From Bacteroidota bacterium (lineage in GTDB: Bacteria > Bacteroidota > Bacteroidia > B-17B0 > Aurantibacillaceae): a stretch of 59,560 nucleotides of DNA. The stretch is from positions 1-59,560 of the forward strand of contig CANFTW010000018.1 of the NCBI GenBank assembly GCA_947450025.1. Direction: 5' to 3'. Below, piece after piece: positions 8,139 to 39,117 of the stretch. A program made the position numbers and the translations under genes. The notes under the pieces were generated by a model, which did no database searches, was not told the origin of the DNA, and saw only the letters and a program-made list of their open reading frames with translations. Numbering within the stretch: position 1 is the stretch's first letter; each line of letters opens with the position of its first letter.

Positions 8139-8945
8139 TTGATCATCATTGGCTGCATAGCGTTTTTAGTAATCGGATTAATTTTAGGATTAATTGGAGG
8201 AGGAGGTTCTATTCTTGGTGTGCCTGTATTAGTTTACGTTATGGGTTATAGTGCCGATGAAGCAACAAGTTATTCCTTATTTATTGTTGGGATGACATCG
8301 TTAATTGGAGCAATAGCCTATTTGAAGAAAGGAGACATCAGTGTAGAAGCAATTTTACAATTTGCGTTAGCATCTTTAACTACTGTTTTTTGTGTTCGTA
8401 AATTTATCATGCCAAATATTCCTTCAGTGCTTCCATTCTTAGGGTTTGAAATTTCTAAGCAAATGTTAATCATGATCATGTTTTCGATTTTAATTTTATC
8501 ATCTTCTATTAGCATGATTAAAAAGAAAACATATAATCGTATTAATGAAGTGAAGTGGGACGAATTTGCTAGAAGTCCATTAGGTCTTCCATTCGTAATC
8601 TTATTAGGGGTTGTTATTGGGTTTATCACTGGTTTTGTTGGGGCTGGTGGTGGTTTTATTATCGTTCCGGTTTTGATATTCTTTTTAAGATTAAATTTTA
8701 AAAAAGCTATTGGCACCTCACTTTGTATCATTGCTTTAAATTCCTTAATTGGATTTACCGGAAATATTGGTCAGCAAAAAATTGATTGGATAATGCTAGT
8801 AATCATATCTTCTGTCTGTATAGTTGGCATATTATTAGGAAGCTTGTTGTCGTCTAAGGTATCCTCTCAAAATTTAAAACCAGCATTCGGTTGGTTTACA
8901 TTAATAGTTGGTGTATTTGTTTTAATTAAAGAAATCTTATTATAG
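8139..8945 (+). CDS. sulfite exporter TauE/SafE family membrane protein
   Basis: This 268-residue integral membrane protein has 7-8 hydrophobic segments in two homologous halves. Each half opens with the family's glycine-rich motif: GLIGGGGSILGVP near residue 20 and GFVGAGGGFIIVP near residue 170. The family exports or imports sulfite, sulfoacetate or other organosulfur anions; the substrate here is unknown. The start is a TTG placed directly after the aspS stop with no spacer, which supports translational coupling. No ATG would preserve the first membrane segment. mltG follows 3 nt after its stop. Confidence 0.88.
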   Translation: MIIIGCIAFLVIGLILGLIGGGGSILGVPVLVYVMGYSADEATSYSLFIVGMTSLIGAIAYLKKGDISVEAILQFALASLTTVFCVRKFIMPNIPSVLPFLGFEISKQMLIMIMFSILILSSSISMIKKKTYNRINEVKWDEFARSPLGLPFVILLGVVIGFITGFVGAGGGFIIVPVLIFFLRLNFKKAIGTSLCIIALNSLIGFTGNIGQQKIDWIMLVIISSVCIVGILLGSLLSSKVSSQNLKPAFGWFTLIVGVFVLIKEILL

Positions 8946-8948
8946 TTA

Positions 8949-10001
8949 GTGGCAAAATCTAAAGGAGGTATATTTAAGAAAGTAATAATTTTGTTAGTTC
9001 TAGGTGCACTAGCATTTGGTGGTTATTGGGCATATGAAAACATATTAAAAAGCAATGTTCATCTGAATGGAAAAAAATTCACCTATCTCTACATTAAAAC
9101 AAATGCATCTTTTGATGATGTGTTGAATGAACTGTATTCTGAAAACATTATTGATGACCATGCTAGTTTTGAATGGTTAGCTAAAAGCATGCACCTTCAA
9201 GACAATATTAATTCTGGTAAATATCGAATTGACGCGAAGATGAGTAATCGTTCTATTGTTAAAATGATTATAAATGGCAAACAAGAAAAAGTTAAATTGT
9301 TTTTTAATTCTCAAATACGAACTAAGGAACAGTTTATAGAATATGTTTCAGAAAAGCTTGAAATCGAAAAACCGGAGTTAGAAGATTATTGTTCCAATGA
9401 AGATATTTTAACCGATGAGTATGGGTTAAATTCAGAAAATTTTATGTCATTAATTGTCCCTCAAACTTATGAAGTTAATTGGACAACTCATATTAATGAG
9501 TTATTTGTATTACTAGAAAAGTCATATGCAGATGTTTGGACAAAAGATAAAGTATCAAAAGCCAAAACAATAGGTTACACAATCCCTGAAGTCATAACCA
9601 TGGCATCTATTGTTCAAAGTGAAAGTGGGATTAAAAGTGAACAACAAAAAATCGCAGGGGTTTATATCAATCGTTTAAAACAGGATATGAAGTTACAAGC
9701 TGATCCTACGATTGTTTTTGCGAACGAAAATTTTGATATTCAACGTGTATTATCATCAGATAAAGAAATTGATTCTCCCTATAATACCTATCGATATAAA
9801 GGATTACCGCCTGGGCCTATATGTTTGGTTAATCCTTCTAGTATAGATGCCGTATTAAATTTTACTAAACATAACTTTACATATTTTTGTGCTAAACCTG
9901 ATTTTAGTGGATATTCTAATTTCACCAACGACTATAAAATTCATCAAAAAAATGCTAAAGCTTATCAAGATGCTTTAAATAAAAAAGGAATTAAACGATA
10001 A
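8949..10001 (+). CDS. mltG: endolytic murein transglycosylase MltG
   Basis: This 350-residue YceG-like protein has one N-terminal membrane segment (about 10-28) and a large periplasmic part. It contains TYEVNWTT, the catalytic block MASIVQSESG (the glutamate of QSE is the expected catalytic acid), GVYINRLKQDMKLQADPT and YNTYRYKGLPPGPICLVNPSSIDAVLN. MltG cleaves nascent glycan strands and acts as a terminase for peptidoglycan synthesis. The start is a GTG 3 nt after the TauE-like stop and is required to keep the lysine-rich cytosolic tail before the membrane helix. It is the third gene of the aspS run. Confidence 0.94.
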   Translation: MAKSKGGIFKKVIILLVLGALAFGGYWAYENILKSNVHLNGKKFTYLYIKTNASFDDVLNELYSENIIDDHASFEWLAKSMHLQDNINSGKYRIDAKMSNRSIVKMIINGKQEKVKLFFNSQIRTKEQFIEYVSEKLEIEKPELEDYCSNEDILTDEYGLNSENFMSLIVPQTYEVNWTTHINELFVLLEKSYADVWTKDKVSKAKTIGYTIPEVITMASIVQSESGIKSEQQKIAGVYINRLKQDMKLQADPTIVFANENFDIQRVLSSDKEIDSPYNTYRYKGLPPGPICLVNPSSIDAVLNFTKHNFTYFCAKPDFSGYSNFTNDYKIHQKNAKAYQDALNKKGIKR

Positions 10002-32393: not shown

Positions 32394-34859
32394 TTGTATA
32401 ATCCACTCAATATCTCAGATATTATCTCTGCTAAATTATTAGGTCAGTCAGATTGTATTATTAAACATTTATTGATAGATAGCAGACAGTTAACAGATCC
32501 TTTACATAGTGTTTTTGTAGCCCTAACTTCTGAACGAAATGATGGTCATCAATATGTTTTAGGATTAAGTCAAAAAGGTGTTAAAGTATTTATTGTTAAT
32601 CATATCCCTGAAAATTGTATTGGGACACCTGAAGATATTTGTTTTTTAATAGTGCCAGATACATTAAAAGCACTTCAGCAATTAGCAACTTATCATCGAA
32701 CAAAATTCATGCTCCCAATTATAGGTGTAACTGGTAGTAATGGTAAAACAATTGTTAAAGAATGGTTATATCAACTTTTAAAATCAGATTATCATATAGC
32801 ACGAAGTCCTAAAAGTTATAATTCTCAAGTTGGAGTTCCTTTATCGGTATGGCAATTAAGTCAAAAACATACACTTGGTATTTTTGAAGCTGGTATTTCT
32901 AAGGTAGGCGAAATGCCATTATTACAAAAAATTATTCAACCAACGATTGGTGTTTTTACGTCATTAGGCACGGCGCATGACGAAGGATTTAAAGGTAGTT
33001 CGGAAAAGTTGAAAGAAAAATTGCAGTTATTTTCACAATGCCAAAAAGTGATTGTGAATGCACTTTCCTTAAAAGAGGAACATCAGGAATTATTAAATCA
33101 TCAAATGTTTTTAATTTCTAGAGCAGAAAATGCCACACTTCAAATTCTGCAGATTGAAAACTTATTCACGCATACTATTATTTTAGGTAAATATAAAGGG
33201 GAACAAATCAGTATTAATATCCCTTTTACAGATTCTGCAAGTGTTGATAATGCTATCACTTGTTGGGCTGTCTTATTACATCTAAACATTGGTCAGAAAG
33301 AAATTGAACATCGAATGCAAACGTTGCAAGCTGTGGCTATGCGATTGGAATTAAAATTAGGAAGTAATAATTGCGTGTTAATTAATGATTTTTATAATTC
33401 AGATATCAATGCTTTAGAAATCGCTTTGCATCATCAAAAACAGCAGCATCGCGGAGGAAAAAAAATCGTGATACTTTCTGATATTGAGCAAAGTGGAAAA
33501 TTAGGATGGGAATTATATAGTCATGTATCAGATTTAATGGCACAATTTCATGTAGATATTATTATAGGAATTGGCAAAGAAATATCCTCTCAAAAATCCT
33601 TATTCAAAGAAAATTCATATTTTTTCGAAAACACGCAGTCATTTTTAAAAGATTATAAGGCAAACCCATCCTTACAGTTTCATCATGCTATTATTTTATT
33701 AAAGGGCGCTAGAAGTTATGGGTTTGAAGAAATCAGTAAACAGCTTCAGCAAAAAAGCCATGATACTGTTCTTGAAATTAATTTAAATCGATTAGTTCAT
33801 AATTTAAATTTTTATCGTTCTCAAATTAATAACGACACTCAATTTATGTGTATGGTTAAGGCAACTGGATACGGAAGTGGCAGTACAGAAATTGCATTCA
33901 CGCTTCAACATCACCATGCCAATTATTTAGCAGTAGCATACGCTGATGAAGGTGTTGAATTAAGAAAAGCTGGAATTCATTTACCAATAATGGTCATGAG
34001 TCCTGAAGAATCATCGTATGATGACATGATTGAATATCATTTAGAGCCTGAGATTTATTCGTTTAAAGTGGCCAAAGAATTTTTAAAAGCCTTGCAATTA
34101 AAAGCCATTTCGGAACCATATCCTGTGCATCTAAAATTAGATACAGGAATGAAACGATTAGGATTTGAATCTCATCAGATAAACGAATTATGTCACTTAT
34201 TAAAAACGGAACATTTATTTAAAGTAAAAAGTATATTCTCACATTTGGTAGCTAGCGACGATAAGACATTTGATGAATTTACAAAAAATCAAATTTCCTT
34301 ATTCGAACGCTTAGCACACCAAATAGAAGAAAATATAGGATACCAGACATTAAAACATATTTGTAATTCTGGCGCGATTACACGTTGGAAAAATGCCCAC
34401 TACAATATGGTGCGCCTAGGTATAGGAATGTATGGTGTTGGATTTAATGACATCGAAAAACATAATTTAGAAAACATCAGTTCGTTAAAAACTCGAATTT
34501 CTCAATTAAAAAATTTAGAGTGTGGTGATACAGTAGGCTACAATAGAAAAGGGATAGCAATGAACTCAACAACGATTGCTACAATTCCTATTGGTTATGC
34601 CGACGGATTTAGCAGAAAATTGGGTAATGGTCATTTTTCAGTATTTGTTAATCAAAAGCCATGTAAAACTATAGGGAATATCTGCATGGATATGTGCATG
34701 ATAGACGTTACCAATGTGGATTGTAAAGAAGGAGATGAAGTGGTTATTTTTGAAAATAATGAACAATTAATGCAATTATCCAAAGCAATGGATACGATTC
34801 CTTATGAAGTATTAACGAGTATTTCAACCCGTGTTAAAAGAGTTTACATTCAAGAGTAA
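32394..34859 (+). CDS. bifunctional MurF ligase / alanine racemase
   Basis: This 821-residue fusion is typical of Bacteroidota. Residues 1 to about 455 are MurF (UDP-MurNAc-tripeptide:D-Ala-D-Ala ligase), with the substrate motif LLIDSRQL and the ATP loop GVTGSNGKT at 111-119. The C-terminal part is alanine racemase, with the PLP lysine K489 in MVKATGYGSG (usually VKANAYGHG), SIFSHLVASDD, ICNSGAI, MVRLGIGMYG and a late GNICMDM. One protein thus makes D-Ala and adds the D-Ala dipeptide to the peptidoglycan precursor. No ATG is available near the start. The TTG at 32394 keeps the expected Tyr-containing N-terminus but lies inside a promoter-like box, so the exact start is uncertain. Confidence 0.93.
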   Translation: MYNPLNISDIISAKLLGQSDCIIKHLLIDSRQLTDPLHSVFVALTSERNDGHQYVLGLSQKGVKVFIVNHIPENCIGTPEDICFLIVPDTLKALQQLATYHRTKFMLPIIGVTGSNGKTIVKEWLYQLLKSDYHIARSPKSYNSQVGVPLSVWQLSQKHTLGIFEAGISKVGEMPLLQKIIQPTIGVFTSLGTAHDEGFKGSSEKLKEKLQLFSQCQKVIVNALSLKEEHQELLNHQMFLISRAENATLQILQIENLFTHTIILGKYKGEQISINIPFTDSASVDNAITCWAVLLHLNIGQKEIEHRMQTLQAVAMRLELKLGSNNCVLINDFYNSDINALEIALHHQKQQHRGGKKIVILSDIEQSGKLGWELYSHVSDLMAQFHVDIIIGIGKEISSQKSLFKENSYFFENTQSFLKDYKANPSLQFHHAIILLKGARSYGFEEISKQLQQKSHDTVLEINLNRLVHNLNFYRSQINNDTQFMCMVKATGYGSGSTEIAFTLQHHHANYLAVAYADEGVELRKAGIHLPIMVMSPEESSYDDMIEYHLEPEIYSFKVAKEFLKALQLKAISEPYPVHLKLDTGMKRLGFESHQINELCHLLKTEHLFKVKSIFSHLVASDDKTFDEFTKNQISLFERLAHQIEENIGYQTLKHICNSGAITRWKNAHYNMVRLGIGMYGVGFNDIEKHNLENISSLKTRISQLKNLECGDTVGYNRKGIAMNSTTIATIPIGYADGFSRKLGNGHFSVFVNQKPCKTIGNICMDMCMIDVTNVDCKEGDEVVIFENNEQLMQLSKAMDTIPYEVLTSISTRVKRVYIQE

Positions 34860-34875
34860 ACAATGGTCACAATTC

Positions 34876-36504
34876 ATGAAATTATTTTTTAGTACATATA
34901 GAAATTCATTTATAATTATCCTATTCTTTATTTTGGCAGAATGGATTATTAATCCAATAGGCGAATTTTCTTTGAATGACGATTGGGCATATGCAAAGTC
35001 TGTAGAAACATATATTCATAAAGGGTGTTTCGAAATTGGTTATTGGCCAGCAATGACATTATATGCTCATGTTTTATGGGGTGTATTATTTGTGAAAATA
35101 TTTGGATTTTCTTTTACCGTTTTACGATTTTCAATATTGCTATTAGGATTAGGATCAATTTTGATTATTCAAAAATTAGCATTCCAAATCACACAAAATA
35201 GACAAACGGCTTTACTCTCAAGCTTAGTTATTTTTGTTAGCCCATTATTTATGAATCTAAGTAATTCATATATGACGGATGTGTCTTTTTTATTTAGTGT
35301 TTTAGCAAGTGTGTATTTCTTTTATCAATGTTTTTATACTGATAAATTAAAATATGTATACCTAGGTTTTCTTTTTTATGTCATTGCATTATTTGTGAGA
35401 CAACTTGCCGTAACTGTTCCTTTAGCATTTATTGCAATTTGTTTATTGGATGTCGTATTTAATAAAACAACATTAAAATTATTGGTTGTTTCTATGGCAT
35501 TATTTTTTGGCTCATTAGTAATTTTATTTTTTTTCGAAAAAAGCATTTATCCTAGTTTAAGTGATTTTTCTTCTTATCAAGGGATATTCTTTTCTAAAAG
35601 TAAAATTCAAATTACGTCCTTAGATTTTTTCGATAATTTATACAAGCGTTTTTCTTTACTTTTATTATACGTAGGATTAACAGTTTTTCCAATTTTAATA
35701 ATTAATATAAAAACATTATTTATAGATGCTTATAATTCGAGTTTAATTAGAAAAGGATTGGCTTTATTGTTTATTATTTTGATATGTGTTGTATACCATC
35801 TTTTTCCTATTGGTAATGTGTTATATAATTCAGGAATAGGTTTAGAAACCACTCCTGATACATTTCATTTTAAAATGAATATCGAACACACCTACAATCC
35901 AATCTTATTTGAAACCATTCGAGTAATAAGTTTATTAGGGGCAACGTTATTTATTTTGCAAATTATTAATCATAGTAAAGATAAAGCTTCAGAGAACTGG
36001 TTTTCACAAAAAAACAAATTCTCGCTTTTTATTGGATTGATTTTACTTGCATATGTTTTTTTATTCGCGATGTTTTCAAGCTTTTATGATCGTTATGCCT
36101 TATCATTTTTTTCATTGGCGTTGTTATTAATGGTTAATCAAATTAATTTTAAATTAAATAAACCAAGGTTTGTCATGATAGTATTATTCATATATAGCCT
36201 ATTTTCTATATTAGCAACCAAAGATTATTTTAATTATAATAGAATTAAAGAAAACATCATCACCGATTTGACACAACATCGCCATGTGAAGGTGGACGAT
36301 ATTCATGGAGGATTTGAGTTTATGATGTGGAACTTTTATGAAAAAGATGGTTGGAATAGGTATTGGGATCATAGAGGATACAACTATCAAATTACATTTG
36401 GAGAAAATTTGGAACCTTATCATACCATCGAAAAACATCCTTACAGAAGATACTTTCCTTTTAAAGTAGATACCTTATATTTAATTAAAAAAGATGAGGA
36501 GTAG
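34876..36504 (+). CDS. GT39-like membrane glycosyltransferase
   Basis: This 542-residue multi-pass membrane protein (about ten hydrophobic segments) resembles ArnT/PMT-type transferases. The acidic pair D35-D36 in LNDDWAYAKS lies just after the first helix, where these enzymes place their catalytic Asp in the first periplasmic loop. Later come FVRQLAVTVPLAF and a soluble C-terminal tail. It should transfer a sugar from a polyprenyl-phosphate donor on the periplasmic side; the acceptor is unknown. I chose ATG 34876, 16 nt after the murF-alr stop. Its 3' end overlaps the next gene by 11 nt. Confidence 0.75.
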   Translation: MKLFFSTYRNSFIIILFFILAEWIINPIGEFSLNDDWAYAKSVETYIHKGCFEIGYWPAMTLYAHVLWGVLFVKIFGFSFTVLRFSILLLGLGSILIIQKLAFQITQNRQTALLSSLVIFVSPLFMNLSNSYMTDVSFLFSVLASVYFFYQCFYTDKLKYVYLGFLFYVIALFVRQLAVTVPLAFIAICLLDVVFNKTTLKLLVVSMALFFGSLVILFFFEKSIYPSLSDFSSYQGIFFSKSKIQITSLDFFDNLYKRFSLLLLYVGLTVFPILIINIKTLFIDAYNSSLIRKGLALLFIILICVVYHLFPIGNVLYNSGIGLETTPDTFHFKMNIEHTYNPILFETIRVISLLGATLFILQIINHSKDKASENWFSQKNKFSLFIGLILLAYVFLFAMFSSFYDRYALSFFSLALLLMVNQINFKLNKPRFVMIVLFIYSLFSILATKDYFNYNRIKENIITDLTQHRHVKVDDIHGGFEFMMWNFYEKDGWNRYWDHRGYNYQITFGENLEPYHTIEKHPYRRYFPFKVDTLYLIKKDEE

Positions 36505-37849
36505 TTTATTATTTATTAGTACACTGTTTTTCTTGTCTTGTCAAGAAAGCAAACAAAAAGAGGCTTTAAAAGAAGCGACTTTTGTTGAGGTAGCTCCTAT
36601 TATTTACAAAAACTGTACCCCTTGCCATAGAGCTGGGGAGAGTGGCCCTATTGAATTCACAAGTTACGAGGCGATTAAAAAAAACGCAAATAAAATAAAG
36701 TTTGTCACACAAACTCGCTATATGCCACCATGGCCAGCTGATGCTTCTTATACGCATTTTATTAATGAAAGAGCTTTAACAAAAGAAGAAATAGATTTAA
36801 TTAAAACATGGGTTGATAAAGGCGCTCCTAAAGGAGATGAATCTAAAATAATTTCTTTACCACAATTTTATACTGGATCATTTTTAGGAAAGCCAGATAC
36901 TGTGATTAGATATTTGAAACCTGTTCCAATTAAAGGGAATGGCGCTGATCATTTTTATATTGTTAAATTACCTATGCAATTAGCCAAAGATACGTTTGTG
37001 CGATATTTTGAATTTGTTCCTAATCATCGGAAGTTAGCTCATCATATTAACGGACATTTAATAAGCTATGAGACAGGAAAGAAAAAAGATATCGTAACCG
37101 GTATTACTCATGCTTTAGATGATTTTTCAGACTATAAGGAACTATTTACTCAAATGAATATTTTAAACGATGACGGTACTTTTCCAGTTTTAAACCCTAA
37201 CACAGTTTACTTTTTACCTGGATATTCACCAGTGAATTATCCAGATGGCATTGGAGGTTATAAAACCAATAAAACGTCTTTAGTGCTGCTTAAAAACATT
37301 CATTACGGACCAAGCAATATTGATGTTTTAGATAGTTCTTATATTAACGTGTTTTATGGACCAAAACCTAAACGTCCTATTATTGAAACACAATTAGGTA
37401 CCTTTGGTATTTCTAAAATTGAACCAGAATTAATTTTACTCCCAAATAAGATTCAAACATTTCATACTCAGGCTGCATTACCAATAGATATCTCTTTGCT
37501 TTCGGTTAATCCACATTTACATTTATTAGGAAAATCGTTTTTGGCTTTTGCAATTCAGCAAAATGGCGATACCATTCCTTTAATTAAAATCAACAAATGG
37601 GATTTTAGATGGCAGTATTATTATACCTATGAGCATCCTATTATTATTAAAGCAGGAACGGTTATTCATGCTTATGCTACATTTGATAACACCGATAAAA
37701 ATCCATTTAATCCAAATCATCCTCCAAAAGTTGTCACACAAGGAGAAGGCGTAAGAAGTATGCAAACGACTGAAGAGATGTTTCAGTTTATTTTTTCTTA
37801 CTTGCCTTATCAACCTAGGGATGAAAAAATGGATTTAAATAAAAAATAG
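36494..37849 (+). CDS. lipoprotein fusing a cytochrome c domain to a PHM-like type II copper monooxygenase
   Basis: This 451-residue lipoprotein (lipobox FLSC, Cys16) begins with a class I cytochrome c domain: CTPCH at 41-45 and a likely axial Met, M77, in TRYMPPWP. Residues about 140-440 match the copper type II, ascorbate-dependent monooxygenase fold of peptidylglycine hydroxylating monooxygenase. Candidate CuH ligands are H183 and H184 (LAHHINGH) and H270 (NIHYG). Candidate CuM ligands are H341 and H343 (NPHLHLLG) and M429 (TTEEMF). All six metal positions are present, so an active hydroxylase is plausible, with the heme as a built-in electron donor. It overlaps the GT39-like gene by 11 nt. 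Substrate unknown. Confidence 0.82.
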   Translation: MRSSLLFISTLFFLSCQESKQKEALKEATFVEVAPIIYKNCTPCHRAGESGPIEFTSYEAIKKNANKIKFVTQTRYMPPWPADASYTHFINERALTKEEIDLIKTWVDKGAPKGDESKIISLPQFYTGSFLGKPDTVIRYLKPVPIKGNGADHFYIVKLPMQLAKDTFVRYFEFVPNHRKLAHHINGHLISYETGKKKDIVTGITHALDDFSDYKELFTQMNILNDDGTFPVLNPNTVYFLPGYSPVNYPDGIGGYKTNKTSLVLLKNIHYGPSNIDVLDSSYINVFYGPKPKRPIIETQLGTFGISKIEPELILLPNKIQTFHTQAALPIDISLLSVNPHLHLLGKSFLAFAIQQNGDTIPLIKINKWDFRWQYYYTYEHPIIIKAGTVIHAYATFDNTDKNPFNPNHPPKVVTQGEGVRSMQTTEEMFQFIFSYLPYQPRDEKMDLNKK

Positions 37850-38637: not shown

Positions 38638-39117
38638 ATGAAAAAACATATTTCTATAAGTGCAGTTGTATTAATGTTAAGTCTAACATTTACATCTTGT
38701 AAAAAACATAAACAGGGTACTGTAAACTACCAAACTATTGAAATTAATTTAGATGCTAATAGAACGTATCAATATAATTTTGGAGATGGTAAGAAAGATT
38801 TATTGATTACCAAGCAATCATCTTCTTATGTCGTTAGTGAGATTGATAGATTAAACGAAACTAATTTGTTTAACTATAGCCCAAAATTAAACACTGCAAG
38901 CGATGAAGTTGAGGTAACATTATTTGAGGAAGAAGAGCATCATGGACATGGCGGGCAAGGCCATCATGGTGGAAATGGTAATTGCCAAAATCATCCTGAA
39001 AATAATAATAGCGAGCATCATGATGCAGATGATGACAGAACCATTTATATATTTAAGTTTAATGTGGTTCATACATCAACATCTTCAAGCACAAAATCTG
39101 CTGCATCTGAAATGTAG
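38638..39117 (+). CDS. His-rich lipoprotein of unknown function
   Basis: This 159-residue lipoprotein has lipobox FTSC (Cys21). After a beta-like segment containing YQYNFGDGKKDLLITKQSSS, residues 97-133 are extremely rich in His, Glu, Asp, Asn and Gly. They open with four Glu, contain eight His between 101 and 128 and one Cys (116), and end in an Asp run. Such a segment would bind Zn, Ni or Cu. Strand-like sequence continues after it (TIYIFKFNVVH), so the His-rich part looks like a loop inserted in a small domain. It has no operon partner and is followed by a terminator shared with groEL. Confidence 0.75.
   Translation: MKKHISISAVVLMLSLTFTSCKKHKQGTVNYQTIEINLDANRTYQYNFGDGKKDLLITKQSSSYVVSEIDRLNETNLFNYSPKLNTASDEVEVTLFEEEEHHGHGGQGHHGGNGNCQNHPENNNSEHHDADDDRTIYIFKFNVVHTSTSSSTKSAASEM

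Follow-up and report, generated by a model that had tools for sequence, protein, structure and literature searches.

Among copper monooxygenases, the textbook examples peptidylglycine alpha-hydroxylating monooxygenase (PHM) and dopamine beta-hydroxylase (DBH) draw their electrons from ascorbate, and animal enzymes of this type make noradrenaline and amidated peptide hormones. DBH, for which ascorbate is the donor, also carries an N-terminal DOMON domain. A heme-fed copper monooxygenase is known among the lytic polysaccharide monooxygenases that are paired with a cytochrome domain, such as that of cellobiose dehydrogenase; these enzymes have a different fold and a single copper, which is held in a histidine brace with the N-terminal His. 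In a passage of one paper, the two copper sites of the PHM/DBH superfamily are given as lying about 11 A from each other (PMC6123673). A review table gives PHM and DBM for eukaryotes only (PMC7435645), and part of another article calls PHM widespread in eukaryotes (PMC8812541). By titles and the beginnings of abstracts, no study of a bacterial cytochrome c-PHM protein was recognised among the matches listed from the open-licence PMC literature. Here we describe such a gene in a 59,560-nucleotide stretch of DNA from a Bacteroidota bacterium of the Aurantibacillaceae (contig CANFTW010000018.1; hereafter the window, meaning the whole stretch analysed). The open reading frame (ORF) at 36494-37849 (+) encodes a protein of 451 aa, which is probably a cell-envelope dicopper monooxygenase of the PHM/DBH superfamily with a built-in N-terminal mono-heme c domain (His45/Met77), working by the mechanism proposed below.

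The frame has a single terminal stop, and the reverse strand of the same stretch is full of stops. NCBIfam gave no family for the 451-aa protein. There are three Cys residues in all (16, 41, and 44), and the PHM part has none. A short hydrophobic N-terminal stretch ends at C16, a Cys shared by 80 of 85 orthologues, and this context fits a lipoprotein signal. The initial annotation had read the gene product as a lipoprotein, with a heme attachment site CTPCH at residues 41-45 and six copper ligands, H183, H184, H270, H341, H343, and M429. Translation places every one of these residues where they had been reported, and the C16 context agrees with the lipoprotein reading.

The conservation of these residues was followed in 111 loci, of which 31 came from searches of the own genome and its order and 80 from a wider contig collection (the best 80 of 212). 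A protein was obtained from 110 loci, the exception (L002) being a weak match to the heme part. After the truncated L104 had been dropped and identical sequences merged, there were 85 distinct orthologues including the window protein, with 46-85% identity, and a recount of the orthologue cores again gave 85 different ones. C41, C44, H45, M77, H183, H184, H270, H341, H343, and M429 are invariant in 85/85, and the only invariant His residues are H45 and the five copper His. A wide set of 35 sequences combined the window protein with 12 evenly stepped rows of alignment A1 (73 rows, the narrow profile) and with 22 proteins encoded at distant or paralogous loci, among them one further orthologue; it excluded ORFs shorter than 420 aa, any gene already represented, and L118, a close orthologue. 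None of the ten residues varies in this set, and all 21 distant relatives have the heme motif together with Met77 and the full complement of six copper ligands. P78, W106, P160, P340, W373, Q374, Y377, D398, N399, N403, N406, P407, P410, and E428 are also invariant in 35/35. Identity to the window protein falls to 29% within alignment A2 (30 rows, the wide profile). Conservation on this scale (85/85 and 35/35) excludes chance as the source of the heme and copper residues. Homologues lacking the copper ligands, which had been named as one finding that would speak against them, were not found in either set. The gene and its parts lie as follows in the window, with conservation given for the orthologues (of 85) and the wide set (of 35).

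36494..37849, + strand: cytochrome c-PHM fusion lipoprotein, 451 aa (ORF translation; one full-length copy in the own genome).
36539..36541, + strand: Cys16, likely lipid-modified, closing the signal peptide (Cys in 80/85; lipobox presumed).
36575..36838, + strand: putative c-type heme domain, about residues 28-115 (Pfam matches below cut-off; helical model; weak fold match).
36614..36628, + strand: CTPCH heme c attachment site, residues 41-45 (C41, C44, and H45 invariant, 85/85 and 35/35).
36722..36724, + strand: Met77 in an MPPW motif, likely distal heme ligand (invariant, 85/85 and 35/35; ligand role presumed).
36887..37813, + strand: PHM/DBH-like double jelly-roll body, residues 132-440 (Foldseek and VIA on the predicted model).
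37040..37045, + strand: His183-His184, CuH ligands (invariant; columns align with DBH His262 and His263).
37301..37303, + strand: His270 in an HYG motif, CuH ligand (invariant; column aligns with DBH His333).
37514..37522, + strand: His341-x-His343, CuM ligands (invariant; columns align with DBH His412 and His414).
37778..37780, + strand: Met429 in a TTEEM motif, putative CuM ligand (invariant, 85/85 and 35/35; past the end of the DBH sequence alignment).

AlphaFold2 run on alignment A1 gave a model with a mean per-residue confidence (pLDDT) of 88.5 and a predicted TM-score of 0.79. When this model was compared with the PDB by Foldseek, ranks 1-31 were all PHM or DBH chains, with expect values (E) from 1.1e-12 to 4.8e-9, and rank 32 was a virus capsid chain at E 4.9e-4. 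VIA-align placed it on DBH (4zel) with Z 19.3 over 277 residues at 3.5 A, and on 25 PHM entries with Z 15.0-18.1 over 232-257 residues at 3.1-4.2 A; the next best match dropped to 6.8. The aligned span runs approximately from 132 to 440 of the model on PHM 55-327, and M429 lies inside it. The link is also detectable without structure, as profile A2 finds human DBH by sequence alone at E 8.7e-11. Five profile His fall on DBH chain residues 223, 224, 294, 373, and 375, which a constant offset of +39 converts to 262, 263, 333, 412, and 414, and part of PMC3197665 names His262, 263, 333, 412, and 414 as copper ligands of DBH. PF03712, the Pfam model of the PHM C-terminal part, matches residues 325-403 with 24.3 bits against a cut-off of 23, so the superfamily link is not hidden. 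The PHM-like body with two copper sites in PHM order, as initially annotated, is borne out by the Foldseek ranks, the VIA scores of 15-19, and the five His in DBH register. Judged from model and alignment, the window protein is a predicted dicopper protein of PHM/DBH type with a fused c-type heme.

Residues 28-115 match two Pfam heme families below cut-off, Cytochrome_CBB3 (E 0.011) and Haem_bd (E 0.024). Folded alone and without heme (AlphaFold2, 63 rows), this part forms four helices with a mean pLDDT of 84.7. VIA gave Z of at least 2 for 2 of 86 chains, PgcA domain 3 (2.4) and SorU (2.0), both c-type cytochromes. The invariant Met77 stands 32 residues after the His of the invariant CxxCH, an arrangement typical, in sequence terms, of small His/Met cytochromes c. 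The c-type heme site that had been noted within the PHM chain is supported, and a likely second ligand, Met77, is added to it. Two COX1 matches and two matches to cytochrome c assembly proteins (PF01578), one with a stop codon read through, were found in the own genome, making heme c attachment and an aerobic chain plausible. Two adjacent small lipoproteins on another contig of this genome, C9 (L154:8296-8682 and 8701-9096), have CSAAGCH (CX4CH) and CTSSCH (CX3CH), not CxxCH; the first of them weakly matches the heme domain of the cytochrome c-PHM protein and has no Pfam match.

Several results weigh against this assignment. PF01082, the Pfam model of the PHM N-terminal part, did not match the window protein at E up to 1, matched nothing in the own genome, and exceeded its cut-off in 0 of 198 genomes of the phylum (2/198 at E up to 0.001); for the N-terminal half, the fold match takes the place of a Pfam match. 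The TM-scores given by Foldseek on the query are only moderate, 0.35-0.47 at a root-mean-square deviation of 5-8 A, which may reflect a differing angle between the two jelly rolls of the model. When the window protein alone was searched against the PDB, the six matches were DEPDC5 chains and ClpB1 (best E 0.0015), with no PHM or DBH among them, and the narrow profile A1 reached neither enzyme up to E 10, its only match being DEPDC5. Single distant relatives used as queries gave DBH at E 0.014 only (L131) or RNase HI chains only (L129). The DBH sequence alignment does not reach Met487, the counterpart of the sixth ligand, and the evidence that points to Met429 as a CuM ligand consists of its invariance and the structural span. 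For the heme domain alone, Foldseek gave no PDB match under 1e-3, and its resemblance in predicted fold to c-type cytochromes is weak, families outside the VIA list not being excluded.

In the mechanism that we propose, once metal and heme are loaded, a respiratory c-type cytochrome or a membrane quinol-cytochrome complex would reduce the heme. Single electrons would then move from the heme to CuH (H183, H184, and H270), the heme having the role that ascorbate has in animals. CuM (H341, H343, and M429) would bind O2 beside the substrate, and one oxygen atom would enter a C-H bond, or a heteroatom would be oxidised. The substrate might be a small molecule or a chain end other than peptidylglycine.

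The gene has a wide distribution in its order, for which 87 genomes in one family and ten genera were covered. A match was present in 85 of them, and in 83/87 the best match has at least 42% identity, some of these matches being fragments at contig ends. Two genomes (G010 and G063) have only a relative of 34-37% identity, and two (G057 and G076) have none. The cytochrome c-PHM gene is therefore not a lone oddity. Among 198 sampled Bacteroidota genomes, 52 match profile A1; 17 of these, the own genome included, score more than 100 bits and have matches extending to the copper part; in the remaining 35 only the N-terminal part matches. In a maximum-likelihood tree of 35 sequences, the 14 close orthologues group together with support of 100/100.

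A different role for the protein is raised by the company its orthologues keep. Within the 80 contig-collection loci, a DUF420 gene lies within 3.5 kb in 29; in 20, all from the band of 42 loci with 52-62% identity, it is on the same strand and less than 200 bp upstream; DUF420 was confirmed by Pfam in the 8 of the 29 loci that were scanned and recognised by similarity in the others. DUF420 is CtaM, which, according to a passage of PMC4958251, is required for the aa3 oxidase in S. aureus, and which in B. subtilis, according to part of PMC9145763, may be important in assembling CuB or at some other late step. For these sister genera, the pairing hints at a link to respiration or to copper loading. 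The protein might then serve heme-copper oxidases by handling copper or aiding their assembly: its PHM scaffold would bind copper and its heme would set the redox state, and it would act with CtaM in CuB assembly and perform no hydroxylation; presence in 83/87 genomes of the order would fit such a housekeeping role. However, DUF420 is adjacent in none of the 17 closer and none of the 21 farther loci, and in the own genome it is found on a different contig (C3), behind a FabZ-like and a LolA-like gene (both labels assigned by eye). The COX1 proteins of the own genome match 0/80 orthologue loci at 1e-5, so the pair is not inside an oxidase cluster there, and a copper chaperone would presumably not need a full PHM O2 site with the CuM Met. 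We regard this role as unlikely. A bolder combination would have respiratory-chain-driven, heme-linked PHM enzymes widespread in bacteria, with the one in this order encoded by a core gene and contributing with CtaM, through conserved hydroxylation or copper chemistry, to the biogenesis of heme-copper oxidases; this proposal is doubtful. As a separate observation, a FabZ-like gene (by eye) directly precedes DUF420/CtaM in L057, L059, L068, L071, and the own-genome locus L153, and in the first four of these the cytochrome c-PHM gene follows DUF420 directly or one gene on.

With heme and copper in one chain, electrons could flow either way, and the protein could accordingly be imagined as an electron-exporting oxidase, or as an O2 or NO sensor, in which copper oxidises a ligand or binds a gas and the heme carries electrons off or signals. 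The conserved His-x-His and Met set points instead to PHM-like O2 activation, and Pfam matched no signalling domain in the chain, so we think this quite improbable. The heme-fed dicopper monooxygenase remains our preferred reading, and the residues around its predicted copper sites bear on what it might oxidise.

R240, N316, and Y318 of PHM are what we take to be the grip on the C-terminal carboxylate of peptidylglycine (an assumption for which no paper was found). The positions matched to them by their offset from the copper ligands are N339, Q431, and I433, each in 85/85 orthologues, and in the wide set Arg at 339 occurs in 0/35, Asn at 431 in 1/35, and Tyr at 433 in 8/35. From these substitutions, the pocket looks conserved within the orthologue clade and yet not made for peptidylglycine. 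As the carboxylate-grip positions appear changed, the name PHM denotes a scaffold here and not a substrate. A true peptidylglycine alpha-hydroxylase acting on bacterial peptides would share the PHM fold and ligands, and the occasional Tyr and Asn in the wide set would suit it. The three positions fixed otherwise in every orthologue, the absence of Arg at 339, the lack of a lyase domain match in the chain (Pfam), and a PHM part with no Cys for PHM-type disulfides all argue against it. This function is very unlikely, and the window protein is probably not a peptidylglycine hydroxylase. That the motifs arose by chance in an unrelated protein, which the pairwise PDB sequence search without a PHM or DBH match might have allowed, can be dismissed in view of the fold and profile matches, the invariance in 85/85 and 35/35, and the five His in DBH register.

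The neighbourhood of the window gene gives little guidance to its function. The initial annotation had noted its place in an overlapping run with murF-alr and a glycosyltransferase. The overlaps are real, with murF-alr at 32394-34859, the glycosyltransferase at 34831-36504 (GTG start), and the cytochrome c-PHM gene beginning at 36494; a functional meaning of the run is not supported, since the arrangement is not conserved beyond the closest relatives. Of the 17 closest contig-collection loci, 16 have murF-alr upstream, 15 have rsmI downstream, and 3 have the glycosyltransferase. In the other 63, neither the glycosyltransferase nor rsmI had a match, and murF-alr had only a match of 24-26% identity, in three. 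An operon with murF-alr and the glycosyltransferase was consequently rejected as a clue to function, being local to the closest relatives. The glycosyltransferase itself (34831-36504), a PMT_2 protein encoded between murF-alr and the cytochrome c-PHM gene, is by its occurrence in 3/17 closest loci a variable insertion. Two genes downstream of the cytochrome c-PHM gene, 38638-39117 encodes a His-rich lipoprotein (run of HHGHGGQGHHGG), which is present in 3/110 loci, its own included; it has no Pfam match and is possibly metal-binding.

Other neighbours appear among the more remote homologues. A redoxin-like gene lies directly upstream of the orthologue in 3/80 loci (L096, L103, and L111), all in the lowest identity band; Pfam recognised a redoxin/thioredoxin fold over cut-off in L111 and L096, and the scanned stretch of L103 had no match. 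Around the 21 distant relatives, a redoxin-like gene is adjacent in six loci and fused in one, SusC-/SusD-like genes are near the cytochrome c-PHM gene in six (L155-L159 and L163), an UnbV/ASPIC FG-GAP protein is encoded in four, a PAP2 protein in three, and a PhoX-like protein in three. Pfam underlies one example each of SusD, UnbV/ASPIC, PAP2, and PhoX, four redoxins, the L114 redoxin, and the fusion; the remaining labels, SusC included, were assigned by BLAST or by eye. Redoxins (3/80, and 7/21 adjacent or fused) and SusC/SusD (6/21) are neighbours as expected of envelope redox enzymes. The former suggest thiol or copper redox partners, and the latter hint that the relatives encoded near them work on compounds caught at the outer membrane, their loci possibly being oxidative nutrient-uptake loci. 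The hints from neighbours diverge, and none holds for the window gene's own neighbourhood. The UnbV/ASPIC FG-GAP protein occurs in L156-L159, with a redoxin-like gene in L156-L158 and a PAP2 protein in L156, L158, and L159. L138/L170 encodes a triple fusion of redoxin, cytochrome c, and PHM of about 600 aa, and in the tree of 35 L138, with its redoxin fusion, sits on a very long branch whose placement is uncertain. A di-heme protein of the cytochrome c peroxidase/MauG family (PF03150) is encoded next to a distant cytochrome c-PHM gene at L160:6688-8634. Por_Secre_tail, a C-terminal tail of type IX type, exceeded its cut-off in L119 and scored under it in L113, L129, and L131.

Pending biochemistry, what would be new is a heme in the place of ascorbate on the PHM/DBH scaffold, as predicted from model and alignments. 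If this is true, there would be another route for feeding electrons to PHM/DBH chemistry, present with its heme motif in 35/35 wide-set sequences and in 83/87 genomes of the order. It would also offer a one-chain system in which to study electron transfer between two coppers, and it would bear on the origin of the animal PHM/DBH enzymes.

Compared with the other bacterial cytochrome c-PHM proteins, the window protein has no sorting-tail match in Pfam, and its gene has no redoxin gene beside it. With rat PHM (e.g., PDB 1phm), it shares the double jelly roll over residues 132-440, three His residues for CuH, and His-x-His with a putative Met ligand for CuM, in the same order. It differs from PHM in being a lipoprotein with an N-terminal heme c domain and a PHM part free of Cys, in having N, Q, and I at what we take to be the carboxylate-binding residues, and in the lack of a lyase domain match. 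Human DBH (PDB 4zel) is its top VIA match (Z 19.3) and is reached by the wide profile (8.7e-11) with five copper His in register; where DBH has an N-terminal DOMON domain, the window protein has a putative c-type heme domain. A likeness to the lytic polysaccharide monooxygenase-cytochrome systems would lie in the arrangement proposed here, in which a copper monooxygenase would be fed by a heme domain.

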